Origin: a virus
IMG/VR virus record: IMGVR_UViG_3300010157_000259
Location: 1 to 23,404 of that record
DNA length: 23,404 bases
Direction: 5' to 3' (one strand)
Both the position numbers and the translations under genes were made by a program. The notes under the pieces were generated by a model. That model searched no databases. It was not told the DNA's origin and was given only the letters and a program-made list of their open reading frames with translations. Positions 144-22,537 of this stretch are shown piece by piece. Numbering within the stretch: position 1 is the stretch's first letter; each line of letters begins with the position of its first letter.

Positions 144-3100
144 TTAACCCACCTTTGAGAATACTGTATTGATAACGCTACTTAGACGTGTATCTTGTGT
201 CTTGAGATTCTCAAGATATGTCTGCCAGTTCTGGTTTTCCATATTGACAACTTGACCTGTAATTCCTAGTTGCTTGTATTGATTGACGATATTCATATGT
301 GCTTGATAATCATTTAACAAACCTTGAACTAATTGAGCCTGCTCATGCTTAGGAGCAGTCTTTGGGTCAGCAAAAATACTTTGTAATTGTCCAAGGGCAA
401 GGGCTGCATTATCTCGCCCTGCGCCGCTAGTATAATTTTCATACCAGGTTGGCTGCATTGTCTTCATTTTTGTCATAAAATCAGACCAGTTAGCATTTTC
501 TTGTTGAAGCATAAAACTATTTTGTTGTTGTTTGTATTCATTAACAGTTGCTGTATGCTGAGCAAGATAAGGTGCTACAAAGTTATTACCAGCAGCAATA
601 AAGAACTGATTCATAAATTCTAGTGGTGTACGCTGTTCACGTAAGTGCTCACGAATTAATTGCTGATGAATAGCAAGAGTATTACCTGGACCTGCATCTT
701 CTGGGATTAAGAATACTGCACCAGTTGAGGTAGTAGGGTTAGTTAATAACCCACCTGACTTGCGGTTTTCTTCAATCCAGTCAATGGCTTTTTGAGTATA
801 TGGAAAATTTGCTCCACGTACAGAAGGTGTTGTTGATGCTACCGTGTATGAAACAGCGTTAGTGCCATGGGTGCCAAGGAATTCAAGCATGGCATCATTG
901 TAATTACCTTTAGATTTAACCAACTTTAAGAATTCATCACGAAGGCCAACATCTGTCTGTTCTACTCGTGGAGACAATGGAGATAGCATTCCAGTAATAG
1001 CCTTGAGGATTAATATACTTCTAGCGTTATTACGGATACGGTCAATAAATGCTTCTTTTTCTTGAGTAGAAGAAGAACCAGTAGGAACTTGTTGACCTAA
1101 TTCATCTTGATGATAATAAGCAGAAGCAAGTGCACCCATAAGAGCATTAGTCATAGCAGCATTCTTTTGGTCTGGACTAATGGTATTCCAAACATTCATA
1201 ATGGGCTTTGATGGAATTAACGATTCCCATATACCGCGATTAGCGGCTAGTCCTAGCCCACCCTCAATTGCTGGTGCAAGATGTGGGAACCAATCTGCAA
1301 TAATGTTTGCGGGAACTGCTGCTATTGGTCCAAGTCCTGGAAGGTCTAAACCTGGAACAACGCTTTTGAGCGATGTCATGCTTCCTTGTGCTGTGATTGG
1401 TAAACCAGAAACCAACGGAATACCAAATGAATTCATTGCGCCTTGCAAACTTTTTCCAAAAGTTCCCACTAATGGAAGGTATGCATAACTGTTACCATTA
1501 GCATCTGTACTGACAAATGATGGGTTATTCATTACCTGTTCTGCCATCTGGTAAAGACGGACAGAACGAGAAAAGGCTGGAGATACTATGCTTGTATCTT
1601 TAGCGGCACGGAATGCACGTTTGATTGACTGTTCTTGAGCAAAGTAAAACGGCATAAAGTTTTGAGCCAACTGAGAAAACTGTGTGCGTAATGCAGTATT
1701 GTGAATCTGTGGAAGCATTGCATGTGTTGCACGATACTGAGCAATGCGTACTGCCTGGTCATGTGTTAATACATCAGTGTTTTCAAGATACTTAAGTGAT
1801 TGCATTTCATTTGAAAAATGTACTAAATATAAAGGCTCACGAGATAAGTTATTAATTACTGGGTCAATTAACTTATTAAAGCCTAAATCAACGGCAGTGT
1901 TAATAAGGCTTTGAATGGTTTTTCCCGCTGGGATATAAGACTCAATTTGATGACCAGCCACAGTTGCTGGCAACTGACGTTTATCTATATCTTTAAGAAC
2001 TTGTAAATCAGGTGCGGAACCTTTAGCAATACCTGCAGCGATATTGTTATGATAAGTTCCATCTTTACCAATGGTTAAACCAAGAACAGAATCAACACGG
2101 TCAGCAGCAAATGCTGCTGGGTCCTGGTCCTTCCAACGCTGCCCTAGAATTGATTCATTCTTGTAAGCATCATAAGTTCCAGCCTTGGTATCCATAATGC
2201 GTTTGTACTCACGATTGATAAGTTCTTGGCGCATTGATTGATACTGTTCAAATTTAGAATTGCCAAGTTCTTTTTCAAGTGTTACCTTTTTGGTTCCACC
2301 AAATACATCCGCAATATCTGCAGCAATGTTCTTACCTTTAGCAATGTTGGCTTCTTTAGAAAGAGCGGTTGCATAAGTTGGCAAGAAATGCGCAGAGTCT
2401 GCTTGAAAAGTTGTAAACTCAGGCAAATCTCTATGTAATAATTTTTTTGATTCTTGTTGAAAAAATGCGTGTGCAGCATTAGCCATGTCATAGCGTGTTG
2501 ATGCTGTTCCACCGCCGCCTGTGCTTACTGCTTCGGAAAGAATGTGTCCATCGTTTGCACGAATTAAATCAATAGCGTGAGCAACTTGGTCCTCTGGTGC
2601 AATCTTAGCAAGTCCTTTGGCAAATGCTTCCCTAAATGCTGGAAAGCCAGTTGTAATAGCATCTGGTGAAATACCTTTAGCGGCTCCAAGAGATGTAAGA
2701 ACTGCTGCAGCAATATGATTGCCTTCACCTGCAATAAGTGGGTCTGCCTTAGCAGCAGATGCAGCAAGTTTAGATTTAATCATATTAGTTACACCATAAC
2801 GGGCAACTGCTGGAATTAATTCTGCAGCAGCAACACGTGTACCGAAACCTAATGTAGCCAATGCTAAAGGCTTAAAGATACTGTTGGTGTATGCCTTAGC
2901 GGTAAATGTATCTAACTTGCCATAACCACGTTGAATAAGATTACCCGAACTGCGGAATGCTTTTTTAGCAGCATTAAAATCTGGAATAGAAAAATCATCA
3001 GTAAATTGATGAGAAGATATACCAGCAGTGGCTGTTCTTCCATCAATAGTTTGATAGGTGCCAATGGTATTTCCTAATGGGTCAGAACCATAAGCCTGGC

Positions 3101-4577
3101 CGCCGATTGTTGGATGATTAAGTTTTTCTAATTCATCTTTAGCGTTCATTACCAAGACGTTATCATCTGGCAATCCCATAGCCTTAAAAGAATCAAATGT
3201 CGTTTGTGCTTTAATAGCACGTGCTAAAGCAATGTCGCCATCAGCAACTGCCTGAGCATATTGTCCAGCCATTTCAGTACCAAATTGATGGTTACCACCA
3301 AATCGCGCAATACGATAAATGACGCTTGTGGCATCTGGGCTGTCCCATTTGAAAGATTTGGTTGATAATTGACGAGTTACTGGGTCAATACTAAACGGCA
3401 TATAACCACTGAATGTTTTATATCCTTTACGTACCCAATTCATTTCCTCTGTTGTAGCATCACCGCGAAGTACTTTTTGAATAGGCTCTAATCCTACAGC
3501 ACGAATAAGTGTGCGCGAAGGCAATACTGCTGAGCCAGCAAGGGTTTTAACCAAATCACCAAAGTATACTGAGTCACGAAGAAAATTATGAATTTCATCT
3601 GCGGATTTAAGATTAGCAATACGAGCAGGTACAATAGTTCCAAGTTCTGGATATTTCTGTGCAATCGTTCCAGCGATTTTTGCTTTTGTTAAAGTTTTAT
3701 CTGCAATGATATTTTCCATATCATTAAGAGAGTTATTATACCCACGAGAAGTAGCGTTAAATACGCCACCTTCTTTAACTAAATCTAATTGCTGCGGAGT
3801 AAACACGCGGCCTGAACGTGCATCAAGAAAATTCTTTGCACCAGGAATACTATCCATCATTGGATATTTAACTTGAGTGGCAATTGCTTCATCACCCATT
3901 TTAAGGTATTTGCCAGATTTCATTAATTGATTAAACTTACCAAGTACAGATATTGGGTCTGTAGTTACGTCAAAACCTGCATCAGCAATACCTGAAACAA
4001 ATTTGCCGATACCAGCATTGGTATTTTTAAGTGCGGCAGATACACCATCAATGCCAATGGCACCTGTAATTTTAGAAAGAGCGTTTGAGAAATCGCGCCC
4101 AGCAGAAATTTGATAATTAGGATTTTCTGAATCCGCGTAAGAATCCTGATACTTAACACCCATTAACTTACGAGTAATGCTGCCTGCCAAATCCGCACCA
4201 GCAATAATTCCTTCTGGACCAAGAGCGGCGCCTGCAACTCCACCTGCTACTGTTCCAATTGTTGCTAAGAACCCAGGGAGGAAACCTTGCTTTTGATATA
4301 CAGAATGAATAAACTTGTAGTCTCGTTGTACTTCTTGCAACGGCTTTGCTAAAAAATTCAAACCTTTGAATACGTCAATGCCTGTTTTAGACCAAAATGA
4401 AGTAGAGTCATTATTAGCCATGTGTTCTGCAACAACGTCATTAGCGACAACACCATTAAGTGCATGAGATGTTAAGACGCCATTTACGGTAGGGTTAGAA
4501 GAATTCATAACCCCCGCTGCTATTGCAGGGTTTTTGGCAAGTTCAGGTGTAATCCAACTGTAATCAATGCCAGCCAA
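144..4577 (-). CDS. Giant virion-associated protein (putative internal/ejection protein)
   Basis: A 1477-residue protein, by far the largest in the window, encoded in the structural block after the portal. It appears to start at TTG (MAGIDYSWITPEL), directly after the stop of the preceding gene, with AGGGG six bases upstream. Residues about 99-132 form a Gly/Ala-rich hydrophobic stretch (GFLATIGTVAGGVAGAALG) that could enter a membrane. The rest is mostly helical in character, rich in Ala, Asn and Gln, with a Gln/Asn-rich C-terminal third. No catalytic motif was identified. Very long, Ala-rich proteins with membrane-seeking segments near portal and tail genes are often internal virion or DNA-ejection proteins, or polyvalent phage proteins. 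A tape-measure role is less likely because the protein lacks long heptad repeats. The family is inferred from size and context. Confidence 0.6.
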   Translation of the reverse strand: MAGIDYSWITPELAKNPAIAAGVMNSSNPTVNGVLTSHALNGVVANDVVAEHMANNDSTSFWSKTGIDVFKGLNFLAKPLQEVQRDYKFIHSVYQKQGFLPGFLATIGTVAGGVAGAALGPEGIIAGADLAGSITRKLMGVKYQDSYADSENPNYQISAGRDFSNALSKITGAIGIDGVSAALKNTNAGIGKFVSGIADAGFDVTTDPISVLGKFNQLMKSGKYLKMGDEAIATQVKYPMMDSIPGAKNFLDARSGRVFTPQQLDLVKEGGVFNATSRGYNNSLNDMENIIADKTLTKAKIAGTIAQKYPELGTIVPARIANLKSADEIHNFLRDSVYFGDLVKTLAGSAVLPSRTLIRAVGLEPIQKVLRGDATTEEMNWVRKGYKTFSGYMPFSIDPVTRQLSTKSFKWDSPDATSVIYRIARFGGNHQFGTEMAGQYAQAVADGDIALARAIKAQTTFDSFKAMGLPDDNVLVMNAKDELEKLNHPTIGGQAYGSDPLGNTIGTYQTIDGRTATAGISSHQFTDDFSIPDFNAAKKAFRSSGNLIQRGYGKLDTFTAKAYTNSIFKPLALATLGFGTRVAAAELIPAVARYGVTNMIKSKLAASAAKADPLIAGEGNHIAAAVLTSLGAAKGISPDAITTGFPAFREAFAKGLAKIAPEDQVAHAIDLIRANDGHILSEAVSTGGGGTASTRYDMANAAHAFFQQESKKLLHRDLPEFTTFQADSAHFLPTYATALSKEANIAKGKNIAADIADVFGGTKKVTLEKELGNSKFEQYQSMRQELINREYKRIMDTKAGTYDAYKNESILGQRWKDQDPAAFAADRVDSVLGLTIGKDGTYHNNIAAGIAKGSAPDLQVLKDIDKRQLPATVAGHQIESYIPAGKTIQSLINTAVDLGFNKLIDPVINNLSREPLYLVHFSNEMQSLKYLENTDVLTHDQAVRIAQYRATHAMLPQIHNTALRTQFSQLAQNFMPFYFAQEQSIKRAFRAAKDTSIVSPAFSRSVRLYQMAEQVMNNPSFVSTDANGNSYAYLPLVGTFGKSLQGAMNSFGIPLVSGLPITAQGSMTSLKSVVPGLDLPGLGPIAAVPANIIADWFPHLAPAIEGGLGLAANRGIWESLIPSKPIMNVWNTISPDQKNAAMTNALMGALASAYYHQDELGQQVPTGSSSTQEKEAFIDRIRNNARSILILKAITGMLSPLSPRVEQTDVGLRDEFLKLVKSKGNYNDAMLEFLGTHGTNAVSYTVASTTPSVRGANFPYTQKAIDWIEENRKSGGLLTNPTTSTGAVFLIPEDAGPGNTLAIHQQLIREHLREQRTPLEFMNQFFIAAGNNFVAPYLAQHTATVNEYKQQQNSFMLQQENANWSDFMTKMKTMQPTWYENYTSGAGRDNAALALGQLQSIFADPKTAPKHEQAQLVQGLLNDYQAHMNIVNQYKQLGITGQVVNMENQNWQTYLENLKTQDTRLSSVINTVFSKVG

Positions 4578-17505: not shown

Positions 17506-17872
17506 GCTGTACTGCCATCAAGTCATCAATGGTAATGAGAAAACCTTTACTTGGATTAGGTTCTTTCTCATTAGAGATGGGTCTGCCATACTTATTAATG
17601 GCTGTCTTTAAGTCATCTGTCGTTGCAATAATAACTAAACTTTCTAGGACAAAGGCCCACCTATCTGCCTTAGTCTTCATCAACCCTGACTCAATCCAAT
17701 TGTAGGTTGAGCGAGAATAGAATGCTGTCTCAATGTAGATGTTGCCTGTCTGTATCCAGCGCCTGTCTCTTTTAACTTCTACTGTCAACCCACCAGTAAG
17801 AATCTCTCTAACCAACTGCTCACCTTCATGGCCGTAAGCAAAGTCTAAATCAAAATCGGATAGGTCAGCCAC
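17495..17872 (-). CDS. PD-(D/E)XK-superfamily nuclease-like protein
   Basis: A 125-residue protein with a nuclease-like core: an acidic start (DFDLDFAYGHEGE), then TVEVKRD with the E32-x-K34 pair of the active site, followed by WIQTGNIYIE (39-48), a layout seen in small phage resolvase- or recombination-type nucleases. It is probably a DNA endonuclease or exonuclease of the replication-recombination module. It sits directly after the proteasome-like gene (eight-base overlap). The family assignment rests on the motif only. Confidence 0.65.
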   Translation of the reverse strand: MADLSDFDLDFAYGHEGEQLVREILTGGLTVEVKRDRRWIQTGNIYIETAFYSRSTYNWIESGLMKTKADRWAFVLESLVIIATTDDLKTAINKYGRPISNEKEPNPSKGFLITIDDLMAVQRAR

Positions 17873-18434
17873 TGGATACCACGTTTACAGTTATCTTTCC
17901 ACCAGTAAAAGCATCACGTCTAATGGCAATCTGAATAGCCTTGGTTGCAATCTTCTTAGCCTTAACCAAGTCATCGCAGTTGCTACCACCTAGCGCCTCC
18001 ATTGCACCTAATGCAAAGTTAGCCCCACTACCTGCAGCATATAAGCCATCCACGCTACGCTCCCATGAATAGTCCTCTGCCATAAGATAAGCCTTAGCAT
18101 GTACCACAATAACCCACACATTATCATTCATTACCGAAGCCTCTGGCTTGGGAAACTCATAGCCTGCCTCAATAAAAGTTCTGCGTATGGCTGGGATTAA
18201 TTGACGGGTAATATACTTATCAGTATCACGTATCTTTGATGGGTCTGGAACAGTAAAGTCATGCTGAAGGATATTGATACCACGCACTGCACCAGCAGCA
18301 GCAAAGACTACTCCGCCGTTCTTAAATACTTTACCATCTGGAATCATTATTGATGAACCATCCTCATCAGAGGACTGCGAATCAGCGGCGATGACAACCC
18401 AAGTAGGCCCTTGTATCACAGCAACTGTAGTCAT
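17865..18434 (-). CDS. Proteasome beta/HslV-like Ntn hydrolase
   Basis: A 189-residue protein with the whole plan of a 20S-proteasome beta subunit. The start MTTVAVI places Thr at position 1 after Met removal, as in HslV, with no propeptide. AAD (16-18) supplies the Asp-17 counterpart and K35 in DGKVFKN the Lys-33 counterpart. GSG (135-137), then ALGAMEAL, and RRDAFTGGKITV (172-183) match the conserved C-terminal half (Ser-129 and Asp-166 region). It should therefore be an N-terminal-nucleophile peptidase, perhaps a self-assembling ring. Its start overlaps the primase gene by four bases. No ATPase partner is seen nearby, so it may work alone, with host Mpa, or have another amidohydrolase role. 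Confidence 0.8.
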   Translation of the reverse strand: MTTVAVIQGPTWVVIAADSQSSDEDGSSIMIPDGKVFKNGGVVFAAAGAVRGINILQHDFTVPDPSKIRDTDKYITRQLIPAIRRTFIEAGYEFPKPEASVMNDNVWVIVVHAKAYLMAEDYSWERSVDGLYAAGSGANFALGAMEALGGSNCDDLVKAKKIATKAIQIAIRRDAFTGGKITVNVVSSG

Positions 18435-19066
18435 GCCGCTAGTCTACCATGAAACCAGTCAGCGCCGTAATGTAGAAACGTGTCGTTGACATCTAAATTT
18501 GCATCCAGATGTACAACTTCTGCTTTATCTAAATCTTCTTTAATACGTTTAGCCAACTCTTGGCCAGGATTGCGTCCGTCTTCTTTAACGTCATTGTCTG
18601 CAAAGACGAGAATGCGATTGTATGATTCGAAAAGTTTTGGGAACCAGGGTTTCCATTGGCTAACTCCCGCCACTCCAACTGCAGGTATGCCAACGATTCC
18701 CGATAATATAATTGTGTCAATCTCGCCTTCGCAAATGGCAATCGTATCGCTATTGATGTGCAAGTCAACAACATTAAATAGCCCAACCTTTTGACCTGTA
18801 GGCCAAAGGTACTTAGGTGTGCCATCATCTAATCTCCTAAACTTTAGACCAACAATTCCTGCTGGTGTGCGATACGGTATTGATAACATCCCACCTGCAA
18901 GTTCATGTCCTGCTATTGGGTCAACGACGCTTCCAAGAAGGAATGTACTTGCGACTTCCTGAGTTATTCCTCGTCCCGCTAGGTAAGAGAGAGCCTGTGG
19001 TGTTAGATTGCTGGAGTATCTTTGTGCTGCGTCCGTGAGCGATAGCCTCTGCTTTTCGTTTAGCAT
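18431..19066 (-). CDS. DNA primase, TOPRIM part
   Basis: A 211-residue protein with the catalytic TOPRIM fold of DnaG-type primases: EGEIDT (113-118) with the metal-binding Glu, and ADND (156-159) as the DxD motif. The N-terminus (LTDAAQRYSSNLTPQALSYL, then AGRG) is the conserved segment that precedes TOPRIM in such proteins. It overlaps the zinc-finger frame upstream by 146 bases, so the primase is either two polypeptides or one joined by a frameshift. The ribosome binding site is distant (AAGGA 13 bases before ATG). Confidence 0.8.
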   Translation of the reverse strand: MLNEKQRLSLTDAAQRYSSNLTPQALSYLAGRGITQEVASTFLLGSVVDPIAGHELAGGMLSIPYRTPAGIVGLKFRRLDDGTPKYLWPTGQKVGLFNVVDLHINSDTIAICEGEIDTIILSGIVGIPAVGVAGVSQWKPWFPKLFESYNRILVFADNDVKEDGRNPGQELAKRIKEDLDKAEVVHLDANLDVNDTFLHYGADWFHGRLAA

Positions 19067-19283
19067 CTTTGAATTCCAATCCTTCTTTTGCTTGCACTAA
19101 TGTGTATACATCTCCAAGTACTTGACATACTAAGCAGTTGTAGGCTTGGTTATCCAAGTTGTATGCTGCACTTGCATGTCCATCGTCATGGATAATGCAC
19201 TTGCATGGTGTCCAACCATGCCTGTCTATAACATTGACTCCATAATGTTCTAACACTGCCGCTAGGTCTGGCTTAGATATCAC
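18921..19283 (-). CDS. DNA primase, zinc-finger part
   Basis: A 120-residue protein whose first 82 residues are a CHC2-type primase zinc finger: C29-x2-H32 and C50-x2-C53 around a beta-sheet (CKCIIHDDGHASAAYN, AYNCLVCQVLGD), which recognises the template. The final 38 residues (from HGRSTKIL) are Ser/Asn/Arg-rich and unlike the family. Meanwhile the +1 frame carries a conserved primase segment over the same bases, so the true product may shift frame near residue 74-84. It overlaps the resolvase-like gene by 11 bases. Confidence 0.75.
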   Translation of the reverse strand: MISKPDLAAVLEHYGVNVIDRHGWTPCKCIIHDDGHASAAYNLDNQAYNCLVCQVLGDVYTLVQAKEGLEFKDAKRKAEAIAHGRSTKILQQSNTTGSLLPSGTRNNSGSRKYIPSWKRR

Positions 19284-19644
19284 CTTGCACTCTTAACCAT
19301 TGGTCTAAATCTTGAATAACCCATGACTGTTCTAACCCTGCCATACGACGTTTGACTATGACATAGGCAGGTGGTGTTGCTTTTAAGTCTCTAGCCTTTG
19401 CATAGTTTTCAGCCTCAATGCAAGCCTCTCGCCAGAACTGTGGCAAGTCCATTTTGATTGTAGCCTTCAACTCAAAAACATACGGTTGGCCTGCAACGAT
19501 AGCAACGATGTCACCCTCATCATCTTTGCCTGCCAACCGTAATCTTTCTGCTGATACACCACGAGAACGTAGGTACTTCAGTATGCCAGTTTCAAACAGT
19601 GCACCCTTGGCTTTATTTTTAGCACTCACTGCTGATTTCCCCAC
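19273..19644 (-). CDS. Holliday-junction-resolvase-like PD-(D/E)XK nuclease
   Basis: A 123-residue protein with the Hjr-type layout: AKGALFETGILKYLRSRGV (12-30) with E18, then GDIVAI (44-49) with D45, then YVFELKAT (55-62) with the E58-x-K60 pair. These are the metal-binding residues of small archaeal and phage resolvases, which cut branched DNA before packaging. It overlaps the helicase gene upstream by 19 bases and the primase gene downstream by 11. A structure-specific nuclease of other preference is the alternative. Confidence 0.75.
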   Translation of the reverse strand: MGKSAVSAKNKAKGALFETGILKYLRSRGVSAERLRLAGKDDEGDIVAIVAGQPYVFELKATIKMDLPQFWREACIEAENYAKARDLKATPPAYVIVKRRMAGLEQSWVIQDLDQWLRVQGDI

Positions 19645-20453
19645 TTCTTTTCCATCTCTAGTATTGCTTTATTGGAATAGATAGACATTCTACTAGCGTC
19701 AGACCATAAAGTTACGTATTGACTACCCGAAGCCGAGTGTTTTGCAAAACGATTCTTGACTGCTGCCACTCTAAACTCACCAGTGTAAGGAAGAAGTGCA
19801 ACGGTTAGAATCATTTCAGGTAACTGGGAAATCTTTCCTTGAATAGCCTTGCGACTAGGCGGCATATCTGCCGAACCTTCATTCTCGGATGTATGGTGGA
19901 GAAGAATAACTGCTGCATCTGTCTCACGTGCTATGTGGTGCATGGCTTTGGCAATCTCACGAAGGCCAGACCATTCATCATTGTGCATAGACACTACGTT
20001 CATAGCGTTATCAACAATAATCATGTGAGGATACTGTCCATAGGCTTCAGCGTATGCGCGGATTGCTAAATCAATTTCATCTAAAGTTGGACTAGGAGCA
20101 AAGTCAAACTGTAAATGTTTAATACTTGTCAGTTCCTCTGTGTAAAATTCTTTACCTTCGCCAGTGGTAAAGGCTTCTTCTACCGATGAAACTTGATGTC
20201 CAGTAATCATTGCCGCAGCACGAAGTGATGTTGTATATGCATCTGTATCTGCGGATATGTAGAGCGTAGGCACTTCCATTTTCACCGCCATCCAAAGAGC
20301 AATCAATGATTTACCAGCGTTAGGCTGGCCTGCAATCATTGTCATCTGTCCTCTGCGGAACTTAATTCCCTCCGCAGTTAGCGGAGGAAATAGTTCTGGC
20401 AATATCTGGAATTCATTAGTGCTTTTCGCTGCCGCTTGGGTGAGTGACAGCAT
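19626..20453 (-). CDS. RecA/DnaB-like replicative ATPase (helicase-type)
   Basis: A 275-residue ATPase with one RecA-type core: Walker A GQPNAGKS (42-49), Walker B MIIVDN (144-149) and a LLHHTSE segment (184-190), like the DnaB/RepA motif that senses nucleotide. It lacks the DnaB N-terminal domain, so it resembles the compact phage helicase or RepA form. With the primase next door it probably opens the fork. The ATG follows a perfect hairpin that overlaps the preceding stop, and no ribosome binding site is visible. Confidence 0.8.
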   Translation of the reverse strand: MLSLTQAAAKSTNEFQILPELFPPLTAEGIKFRRGQMTMIAGQPNAGKSLIALWMAVKMEVPTLYISADTDAYTTSLRAAAMITGHQVSSVEEAFTTGEGKEFYTEELTSIKHLQFDFAPSPTLDEIDLAIRAYAEAYGQYPHMIIVDNAMNVVSMHNDEWSGLREIAKAMHHIARETDAAVILLHHTSENEGSADMPPSRKAIQGKISQLPEMILTVALLPYTGEFRVAAVKNRFAKHSASGSQYVTLWSDASRMSIYSNKAILEMEKKWGNQQ

Positions 20454-20477
20454 CTAAGTTCTATCGCAAGAACTTAG
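20454..20477 (-). repeat. Intercistronic hairpin before the helicase start
   Basis: CTAAGTTCT (20454-20462) and AGAACTTAG (20469-20477) pair perfectly around a six-base loop. The stem covers the stop of the upstream gene and ends directly at the helicase ATG (20453), where the ribosome binding site would be. It may limit or couple helicase translation. Confidence 0.5.
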
Positions 20478-20832
20478 GAGCGCACTGGTCTGGTGTGCCC
20501 TGTGGTGATGGGCAGAACCAACCTTTCCAAGACTTAGGAGCACCTGGCTTTGACTCACGGTATACCAGTTTGCCATGCTTACAATGTCCTTCTTCAATAA
20601 CGCTAGATGATTGTGCTGCTGGTGCATTGAACTGCGCTGCAATTGAAGCAGCAGTTGGTGCAGGCGCTCCGCCACCTAAATCATTTGATGTTGCTTTGAT
20701 AAGTGTTGAAACCATACCGACGTCCATAAGAGAAGTTTCAAGTTCCTTAATGTTATCTGCATAGATATTGATTAGAGTACCGTCAGCCAACTTAAAGTTG
20801 ACCTGTAGTTTGGTGCTAGGTGATGCGCTCAT
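20461..20832 (-). CDS. Zinc-ribbon protein of the replication operon
   Basis: A 123-residue protein with an N-terminal beta-rich part (KLQVNFKLADGTLINIYADN), a Pro/Ala linker (GGGAPAPTAAS) and a C-terminal metal-binding part: CKH (84-86), C107 and C117 in YRESKPGAPKSWKGWFCPSP and QGTPDQCAPKFLR. This C-terminal pattern recurs beside helicase genes in actinophages, as far as I recall. It may bind single-stranded DNA or load the helicase, but that is inference. AAGGA six bases before the ATG is a good ribosome binding site. Confidence 0.6.
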   Translation of the reverse strand: MSASPSTKLQVNFKLADGTLINIYADNIKELETSLMDVGMVSTLIKATSNDLGGGAPAPTAASIAAQFNAPAAQSSSVIEEGHCKHGKLVYRESKPGAPKSWKGWFCPSPQGTPDQCAPKFLR

Positions 20833-21017
20833 GTGTTTTCCTTTTCTGTTGTATTTGACTTGATTATATGGTTTCTTAAAAATTCTACTTCAAACTTAAG
20901 ATTCTTGTTTTCATACTTTAATGCTGATAATTCTTTATTCTTTGTAATATCAGCAACGATTTCCAATGCTGCTTCTAATACTTCCTTGCTTTGTGTATCC
21001 CATCTATTGTTACCCAT
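20829..21017 (-). CDS. Small coiled-coil protein
   Basis: A 62-residue protein (MGNNRWDTQSKEVLEAALEIV...) in which residues 10-55 read as a continuous charged helix with heptad-like Leu/Ile spacing (ELSALKYENKNLKFEVEFL). It probably dimerises. The start overlaps the nuclease gene by eight bases and the stop overlaps the next gene by four. No family is recognised. Confidence 0.55.
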   Translation of the reverse strand: MGNNRWDTQSKEVLEAALEIVADITKNKELSALKYENKNLKFEVEFLRNHIIKSNTTEKENT

Positions 21018-21672
21018 TGCTTAAACCTGCTAATGGGTCATACACTTGTGCTAGTTGTCCGCCTACTGCGTAGCAGTATTCCTTTACCCCACAAGTGGAG
21101 CAAGACATTCCGATGTTAGGTAAAAAGATTTCATTGCGGATACCAATATCAAACTTGGTAAATAATTCTGTCAATACTGGAATAGTCCAACGCTCTAACC
21201 CTGATGCCTCAATGAACTGTGCCTTACGTGCATCATAGTAGTAGCCCTTGGTTGGACGGAAACCAAACTGCATCTCCATCAATGAGGCGTAGACACCCAG
21301 TTGCAAAGATGAATCAGGAATGTATGAGCCAGTCTTAAAGTCCACAACTGCAACTTCATTACCTGCCATCACTACTGCATCTGCAAATGCTTTGACTGGT
21401 ACTGCACCAAAATTATTATTAAATCCTATTTCAATTCCAGGTACACCTTCTGGTGATACCCAAACTTCAAAACCAGATTCTTGCCAAGCATTAATGAAAT
21501 CAAAAAACATGCGCTTGCCGTTCTCATCCCACCACGCTTTGTTTTCTTTATCTGGATTTGCTTTAGTAGAACGTCCACCAACTCTCCAGTCAACTGGATT
21601 GGTATTGTTCTTGGCTGAGACTTCTGCTATCTGTTCTAGGAATGATTCATCCCACATTAAATCCCATGTCAT
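21010..21672 (-). CDS. Cas4/RecB-like PD-(D/E)XK exonuclease, catalytic part
   Basis: A 220-residue protein with the nuclease core of the Cas4/RecB family: D98 in AFADAVV, D111-x-K113 in VVDFKTG, Q124 and Y128 in LQLGVYA, then a C-terminal triple-Cys group C191-x2-C194-x5-C200. These three Cys and one Cys near the N-terminus hold a 4Fe-4S cluster in intact family members. Here the N-terminal part is absent from this chain; it is encoded about 400 bases upstream by another cistron, with two unrelated small genes in between. The start is a TAATG overlap. Confidence 0.8.
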   Translation of the reverse strand: MTWDLMWDESFLEQIAEVSAKNNTNPVDWRVGGRSTKANPDKENKAWWDENGKRMFFDFINAWQESGFEVWVSPEGVPGIEIGFNNNFGAVPVKAFADAVVMAGNEVAVVDFKTGSYIPDSSLQLGVYASLMEMQFGFRPTKGYYYDARKAQFIEASGLERWTIPVLTELFTKFDIGIRNEIFLPNIGMSCSTCGVKEYCYAVGGQLAQVYDPLAGLSNG

Positions 21673-21860
21673 TATTCTTCCACTTTCCCAAACACTATCT
21701 CTTTCGCTTTTAGAAGTCCCGACTTTACACCTTCATCGGTTGTTTTGTCAACTTCAGCCTGAATACTAGCCGCTAAGTTACGGCGCATTACTACTTCCGC
21801 TTCAACAAATGACTTCATAAAAGCATCACGACTAACTATCTTTGCGTGCTTGCGTCCCAT
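21672..21860 (-). CDS. Small helical hypothetical protein inside the split nuclease locus
   Basis: A 62-residue, fully helical-looking protein (MGRKHAKIVSRDAFMKSFVEAEVVMRRN...) with alternating charges. It begins three bases after the preceding stop and ends in a TAATG overlap with the catalytic nuclease part. No family is recognised. Its place between two halves of one enzyme suggests either an inserted cargo gene or a subunit of the complex. Confidence 0.55.
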   Translation of the reverse strand: MGRKHAKIVSRDAFMKSFVEAEVVMRRNLAASIQAEVDKTTDEGVKSGLLKAKEIVFGKVEE

Positions 21861-21863
21861 AAT

Positions 21864-22079
21864 TTAATCTCCTAACTTTGGTATTGGAGCGACGGCGATG
21901 CTACTGCATAATGCACATCGCATGTCGAGGAAGTAGATACCCAACTCCCCGTCATCGTCGAACTTACACTTGACGTCCCACAAGTCACTACCACACGGAC
22001 AGATACGTATTGGACCAAGGCTACGATAGTCTGCTTCTTGACCGCTGGTGGGTTTAATGTTAGCAATCTCTTCTGCCAT
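21864..22079 (-). CDS. Small zinc-ribbon protein inside the split nuclease locus
   Basis: A 71-residue protein with Cys at 27, 29, 38, 55 and 58 (ICPCGSDLWDVKCKF, MRCALCSS), a zinc-ribbon layout with an acidic strand between the knuckles. The start overlaps the nuclease N-terminal cistron's stop (TAATG). Similar short ribbons stand alone in many actinophages. It probably binds metal; its role is unknown. Confidence 0.6.
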   Translation of the reverse strand: MAEEIANIKPTSGQEADYRSLGPIRICPCGSDLWDVKCKFDDDGELGIYFLDMRCALCSSIAVAPIPKLGD

Positions 22080-22300
22080 TAGAATGGAACATCAGAGGTT
22101 GCTGTTTTGTTTTGAGTCTTTGCGAATTCAGCCAGTAGATATTTTTCTGCTGCTGAATGAAATGCAGAACCTCCCACGAACCACCATGCAGGTTCTGAAG
22201 GTGCTTGTAATTCTCTCTCTAGTTGCCATGCTTTACCACAGCGAATCCATGAAGAGAACGATGAAAAACTTCTATGCGCGATTGTTGTTTCTGTTGTCAT
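22079..22300 (-). CDS. Cas4/RecB-like nuclease, N-terminal part
   Basis: A 73-residue protein matching only the N-terminus of Cas4/RecB-like nucleases: RSFSSFSSWIRCGKAWQLER (10-29) with the single Cys (C21) that pairs with three C-terminal Cys in the iron-sulphur cluster, then FVGGSAFHSAAEKYL (the helix ending in the conserved FH). It stops after KTATSDVPF, where the intact family continues into the catalytic domain. No ribosome binding site precedes the ATG, but an extended -10 lies six bases upstream, so the mRNA may be leaderless. This is the first gene of the operon. Confidence 0.7.
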   Translation of the reverse strand: MTTETTIAHRSFSSFSSWIRCGKAWQLERELQAPSEPAWWFVGGSAFHSAAEKYLLAEFAKTQNKTATSDVPF

Positions 22301-22411: not shown

Positions 22412-22537
22412 GAAGCGAATGCAATTGGGGAGTGCTCCGCACTCTAATGGGAAAGGCGCGGCGCTTTGGATAGCGCCTTAAGAGAAAAACAAAAACAAAA
22501 AAAGCCCCCTCGGTTTTATCCGAAGGGGCTTTGTCTT
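22412..22537 (+). ncRNA. Candidate phage small RNA, about 125 nt
   Basis: Between the consensus promoter and a terminator-type hairpin, the predicted transcript contains no gene but has three stems: GAGTGC/GCACTC (22430-22435 with 22439-22444), AAGGCGC/GCGCCTT (22453-22459 with 22473-22479), an A-rich single-stranded linker (about 22480-22500) and the 13-base terminator stem. This promoter-hairpins-linker-terminator order is typical of small regulatory RNAs. The target is unknown. The alternative is that the promoter only produces aborted antisense RNA against the lysis operon. Confidence 0.45.
22501..22532. terminator. Terminator of the lysis operon (works in both directions)
   Basis: AAAGCCCCCTCGG (22501-22513) and CCGAAGGGGCTTT (22520-22532) pair over 13 bases with one mismatch and a six-base loop. 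On the minus strand the stem is followed by a long T-rich run (complement of AAAACAAAAACAAAA), a strong intrinsic terminator 20 bases after the holin stop. On the plus strand TTTGTCTTG follows, a weaker but usable end for the candidate small RNA. Confidence 0.85.

Follow-up and report, generated by a model that had tools for sequence, protein, structure and literature searches.

Iron-staple nucleases (Cas4, AddB, AdnA and Dna2) have been described as single chains, in which the cluster holds the two ends of the domain to each other. In AdnA and AddB the nuclease domain lies within a large helicase chain, with all four cluster Cys on one polypeptide. CRISPR-associated Cas4 is a single chain encoded with cas genes; in the solved Cas4 proteins the cluster is ligated by one N-terminal and three C-terminal Cys, and a His in the N-terminal part is a metal ligand, observed in SSO0001 and proposed in Pcal_0546 (PMC4176176). 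Every Cys to Ala change in Sso0001 gave insoluble protein (PMC3466216). In Pcal_0546 and SSO1391, by contrast, Cys to Ala changes removed the cluster and activity persisted (PMC4176176), so the cluster may be dispensable for catalysis. Cas4-like exonucleases are also encoded by actinophages, and those of Mycobacterium phage Toaka (gp75), Rhodococcus phage Hiro (gp56) and Propionibacterium phage PHL151M00 are single chains of approximately 263-318 aa.

A locus of a different layout was examined in a 23,404-nucleotide stretch of viral DNA (IMG/VR record IMGVR_UViG_3300010157_000259, positions 1 to 23,404; hereafter the window). The genes for which coordinates are given here lie on its minus strand. 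The N cistron (22300-22079) encodes a 73-aa chain with a single Cys (C21), a His (H48) and a C-terminal DVPF tail. It is followed by a zinc-ribbon gene (22079-21864; 71 aa), a gene for a helical protein (21860-21672; 62 aa) and, immediately 3' of the latter, the C cistron (21672-21010; 220 aa), which carries a PD-(D/E)XK core (D98, D111, K113 and Q124) and three further Cys (C191, C194 and C200). An earlier note on this DNA had described the junctions as TAATG, a three-base gap and TAATG, with one Cys in the first cistron and three in the last, and both descriptions were confirmed in window coordinates.

Downstream of the C cistron are a 123-aa gene (20461-20832; phrog_364, E 8.6e-8), a homologue of which is also next in the phage E7 described below and occupies the same place in locus L065, then a DnaB-like helicase of the same operon (19626-20453; phrog_243, E 6.3e-72), a RusA-like Holliday junction resolvase (19273-19644; phrog_244, E 3.3e-21) and a primase; upstream of the N cistron is an endolysin. 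The nuclease is thus adjoined by lysis, helicase, RusA and primase genes, with no cas1 or cas2 neighbours, which sets it apart from CRISPR-associated Cas4, and, like the nucleases of the actinophages named above, it is located before a DnaB-like helicase. Elsewhere the window encodes a WhiB-like regulator, of a kind known only from Actinobacteria and their phages, and this suggests that the host is an actinobacterium.

The N and C chains match complementary parts of the same profiles, as expected from the proposal in the earlier note that a Cas4-like nuclease is encoded here in two pieces. On the 247-position PDDEXK_1 profile (PF12705), N aligns at 3-51 and C at 79-246 (E 4.2e-9); with a curated cut-off of 22 bits, C passes at 37.2 and N falls below at 16.5. 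N also matches phrog_69 (E 6.8e-12). In the phrog_1870 exonuclease family, N covers 14-69 and C covers 79-293 (E 6.2e-32). The halves are thus complementary, and hardly any of the family profile is left uncovered. The RecB motifs are present and invariant, with H48 in N and D98, D111-x-K113 and Q124-x3-Y128 in C. The four-Cys pattern is also found, distributed over two chains as one N-terminal Cys (C21) and a C-terminal C-x2-C-x5-C motif (C191/C194/C200). The earlier note did not mention H48, an invariant His within GGSAFH that is the counterpart of the metal ligand in the active site of Cas4; its presence on the N chain suggests that the catalytic site, like the cluster, is divided between the chains. 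It follows C21 by 27 residues, compared with 30 in both solved Cas4 proteins (SSO0001 and Pcal_0546). By sequence, the pair belongs to the Cas4-like PF12705 family of iron-staple nucleases. The family, the catalytic residues and the four Cys are shared with the actinophage exonucleases, and the one-plus-three Cys arrangement, the N-terminal His and the RecB motifs are shared with CRISPR Cas4 (PMC4176176, PMC3466216). Judged from its genes, the window nuclease departs from the described family members examined in that it is two chains, cut in the linker after the His-bearing helix and with two genes in the gap.

Intact relatives, for which the earlier note had suggested a search in related phages, were found, and they contain the N segment, so its absence from intact members, named in that note as a refutation, was not borne out. 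In a group of viral loci designated clade III, N and C are in one frame in all 80 loci fetched, and single-frame homologues also occur in Mycobacterium, Rhodococcus, Gordonia, Thermobifida and Propionibacterium phages. From this breadth, the unsplit gene is most likely the ancestral state. One further locus (L063, 1029-2020, in a 47-kb record) has an otherwise fused homologue with a frameshift near the end of the core, the Cys motif lying in another frame. A scan seeded with one intact homologue (L234) recovered only L234 itself, and no bacterial relatives were confirmed.

The structure predicted for L234 was of high confidence (pLDDT 94.9, pTM 0.90). It matched AdnA with a Z score of 17.4 over residues 1-267, with further matches over nearly the whole length to an Argonaute-associated Cas4 (16.2), AddB (16.0), Dna2 (13.5) and Cas4 (12.7); SSO0001 and Pcal_0546 gave 11.5 and 8.8. 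The N segment is included in the AdnA and AddB matches, which are the best, and the four Cys align with AdnA. The N segment thus belongs to the predicted fold. Two parts that did not form one fold, which the earlier note had put forward as evidence against a split enzyme, were not what was obtained: the intact protein was predicted as one confident fold over both. When the C chain was modelled alone, a confident core was obtained for approximately residues 50-180, with the Cys loop (184-220) at pLDDT 30-45 and a best Z score of 9.1. The contrast between C alone and the intact protein is suggestive only, because the models used different alignments.

The split is widespread. When C was used to search public viral contigs, 61 loci were recovered, and an alignment-seeded scan gave at least 219 matching stretches. 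All four genes were present in 187 fetched loci, a set that draws also on a separate scan seeded on N and that includes contigs fetched repeatedly, so that 84 distinct N and C protein pairs are the safer count. The order N, zinc ribbon, helical protein, C was found in 187/187. The distance from the N stop to the C start ranged from 209 to 738 nt across the window's clade, a variation due to the gain and loss of additional small genes in the gap; L038 is the only complete locus of the clade that lacks the zinc ribbon. C21, the GxAxH His, D-x-K and C-x2-C-x5-C were retained in all 84 distinct pairs. These pairs, together with two isolated and sequenced phages described below, rule out a sequencing or assembly slip, as the earlier note had argued from the tidy junctions.

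The presence of genes between the halves could mean that an insertion broke the nuclease gene, leaving a C half that works alone or is dead and an N half that is a decaying relic. Such a reading would accommodate the activity of some Cas4 Cys mutants (PMC4176176) and the good catalytic core predicted for the C half alone, and in one locus (L034, 790-992) the N half does carry a frameshift; it is the single such locus, and either an error or real decay could account for it. Several observations argue against decay. By Nei-Gojobori counting over 133 pairs, N had a dN/dS ratio of 0.158 and C one of 0.162, so N is under purifying selection equal to that on C, which is not the behaviour of a relic. 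The Cys and His are invariant in the 84 distinct pairs, N is present in every complete locus, and N accompanies C wherever the contig runs on: the N-seeded scan returned just two loci without C, and their contigs stop 248 and 593 nt downstream.

N also diverges in step with C. Across 54 non-redundant loci, divergence in N and divergence in C were correlated (r = 0.75), compared with 0.47 for N and the adjacent zinc ribbon and 0.39 for N and the helical gene; the helical gene, which touches C, correlated with it at only 0.44. The partial N-C correlation given both intervening genes was 0.64 (permutation p 0.001), and 0.54 in the window's subclade, although the co-divergence may in part mirror shared history. 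These values indicate that the intervening genes have been exchanged more freely than the halves that flank them. No second copy of the nuclease domain was found in ten records of 33-43 kb, which are possibly incomplete genomes. The relic reading is therefore considered very improbable, and of the two outcomes offered in the earlier note, assembly in trans or a relic, the constraint on N, its constant company with C and their co-divergence favour the former. The split itself is real, old and maintained by selection.

The closest match among named phages, 'Caudovirales sp. ct2KA10' (OX376640/OX376641), has a split nuclease too, with N and C overlapping by 17 nt. The ct2KA10 record is Planktophila phage LanE43AprE7 (E7), and we infer that OX376641 is phage F5. 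'Ca. Planktophila' LanE-43, a freshwater actinobacterium, was the host on which both phages were isolated (PMC10202952), and the main text of that report does not mention the exonuclease. Because the split is present in these cultivated phages, the idea of a two-chain enzyme is directly testable. They belong to a second split clade (clade II), a scan for which gave at least 305 matching relatives. The best 80 of these were fetched, and all 80 loci in which N was visible, with ct2KA10 counted in, were split. The split lies at the same linker as in the window's clade, and the genes around the nuclease are ordered as in the window. In 75/80 the N and C frames overlap by approximately 8-20 nt, always with the +1 relation. 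The remaining five hold other genes between the halves, with approximately 0.93 kb in three and 0.3 kb in two, and the gap in clade II seems to have acquired genes repeatedly. The inserts at L176 (3045-4017), L204 (3682-4011) and L210 (3661-4005) are unrelated genes of 107-114 aa, with one additional ORF in L176.

Given the constant +1 overlap, programmed frameshifting might operate in clade II, and it may be asked whether the halves are generally joined after transcription, by intron splicing, an intein or frameshifting, into one protein. Frameshifting is ruled out in the window, where approximately 400 nt and two genes with operon-like junctions separate N from C. Joining by any of these routes is also at odds with the variable gap length and gene content in the window's clade, the 0.3-0.9 kb between the halves in five clade II loci, the separate start and stop codons of N and C and the lack of any Rfam intron. 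It is accordingly regarded as a long shot.

In a tree of 68 rows, each split group was monophyletic (100/100). In the best tree, two intact sequences were the neighbours of clade II (92/86), a topology that would imply two splits; a single joint clade of both split groups was not rejected (AU p 0.205), and long branches are in play.

Phage genes in pieces have a precedent in the ribonucleotide reductase of Aeromonas phage Aeh1, which is split by a homing endonuclease and functions as two chains. The window resembles Aeh1 in that an interrupted gene is kept as two chains, and differs in that there is no recognised endonuclease between the halves and in that the cut falls between ligands belonging to the same metal cluster and to the same active site. 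A split by a homing endonuclease or an intron was considered for the window and rejected, as neither the zinc ribbon nor the helical protein has a Pfam match and no Rfam match was obtained.

The earlier note had described the genes between the halves as two unrelated small genes. Their position was as described, and 'unrelated' does not hold for the zinc ribbon. In 67/80 clade III loci (L237-L307), the gene next upstream of the intact nuclease is a homologue whose Cys positions match; it is on the other strand, head-to-head with the nuclease. In the window's clade the zinc ribbon is inside the split gene and on the nuclease strand. It is thus an old companion of the nuclease that in the window's clade has ended up inside the split gene, and a functional link between the two is likely from this gene neighbourhood. 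The helical gene is always immediately before C in the window's clade and had no credible match outside it.

N might instead have been repurposed, for instance as an adaptor, so that it no longer completes the nuclease. Most N chains of the window's clade end in (D/E)(V/I/L)PF or PPF with codons that vary synonymously, such ends were exclusive to N-half ORFs among 5325 ORFs scanned, and the tail in the window (22082-22093, minus) resembles the C-terminal tip of bacterial SSB. Against this, the tail is missing from basal members and from clade II and is under weaker constraint than the core (pN/pS 0.42 and 0.20, respectively), and the conserved part of N is the nuclease-fold segment with its Cys and His. 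Loss of the original role of N is consequently given little credence.

The identity of the metal bears on a further alternative, a two-chain nuclease whose four Cys hold zinc, or no metal at all, in place of an iron-sulphur cluster. The related fold 3L0A has the same four-Cys arrangement and carries Zn instead of Fe-S (PMC3466216). The closest structural matches (AdnA, AddB and Cas4) are nonetheless Fe-S proteins, and the C-x2-C-x5-C spacing equals that of Cas4, so this version is thought unlikely.

The explanation that we consider probable is that N and C form an obligate two-chain exonuclease, in which the Fe-S cluster and the active-site metal are each ligated from both chains. The products of the two cistrons, made from one operon, would be the two chains of a single DNA exonuclease of RecB/Cas4 type and would fold together. 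N would supply the initial helices, along with C21 as the first Cys of the cluster and H48 as the His that binds metal; C would supply the PD-(D/E)XK core and the remaining three Cys, such that the iron-staple cluster (C21 with C191/C194/C200) and the active-site metal site (H48 with D98/D111/K113) would both be completed in trans. Its probable role is the resection of phage DNA ends for recombination, with the adjacent helicase, RusA and primase as neighbours in that task, and the role rests with the enzyme as a pair; the zinc ribbon is a possible accessory partner. We infer the physical assembly, Fe-S content, activity and end-resection role of the pair from the comparisons above.

A broader account, which we favour with rather less assurance, is that a heteromeric RecB/Cas4-type nuclease with its staple and catalytic site spread across two products is present in two large lineages of freshwater actinophages, was split at the same inter-helix linker, perhaps twice independently, and has a gap that serves as a landing place for genes, with an SSB-tip-like N tail in one lineage that may dock host repair proteins. 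The literature searched contained no account of a Cas4-like phage nuclease in two pieces, although one may exist elsewhere, and the word 'split' is absent from a paper on Cas4 phylogenomics (PMC5704561). If the two-chain reading is true, this natural version would show that the staple can glue a heteromer, would allow the function of the cluster to be addressed cleanly, and would constitute a natural split nuclease that is active only on assembly. A small conserved ORF (N) that annotation would call hypothetical would gain a function. The split is a widespread one, with at least 219 and at least 305 matching stretches in the two clades.

Several other features of the window were recorded. An ORF of 1477 aa (144-4577, minus) has no PHROG match. 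In a promoter and terminator scan of the operon, the number of matches was about equal to that in shuffled sequence; a strong 13-pair terminator-like hairpin with a T run (22501-22532, minus) lies upstream of N and divides it from the lysis genes. A protein of the HslV-like (proteasome-type) peptidase family (17865-18434, minus; phrog_1040, E 1.6e-30) is encoded by a gene that overlaps the primase gene. The primase is likewise in two overlapping ORFs (18431-19283, minus), one zinc-binding (phrog_360, 18921-19283) and one catalytic (phrog_849, 18431-19066).
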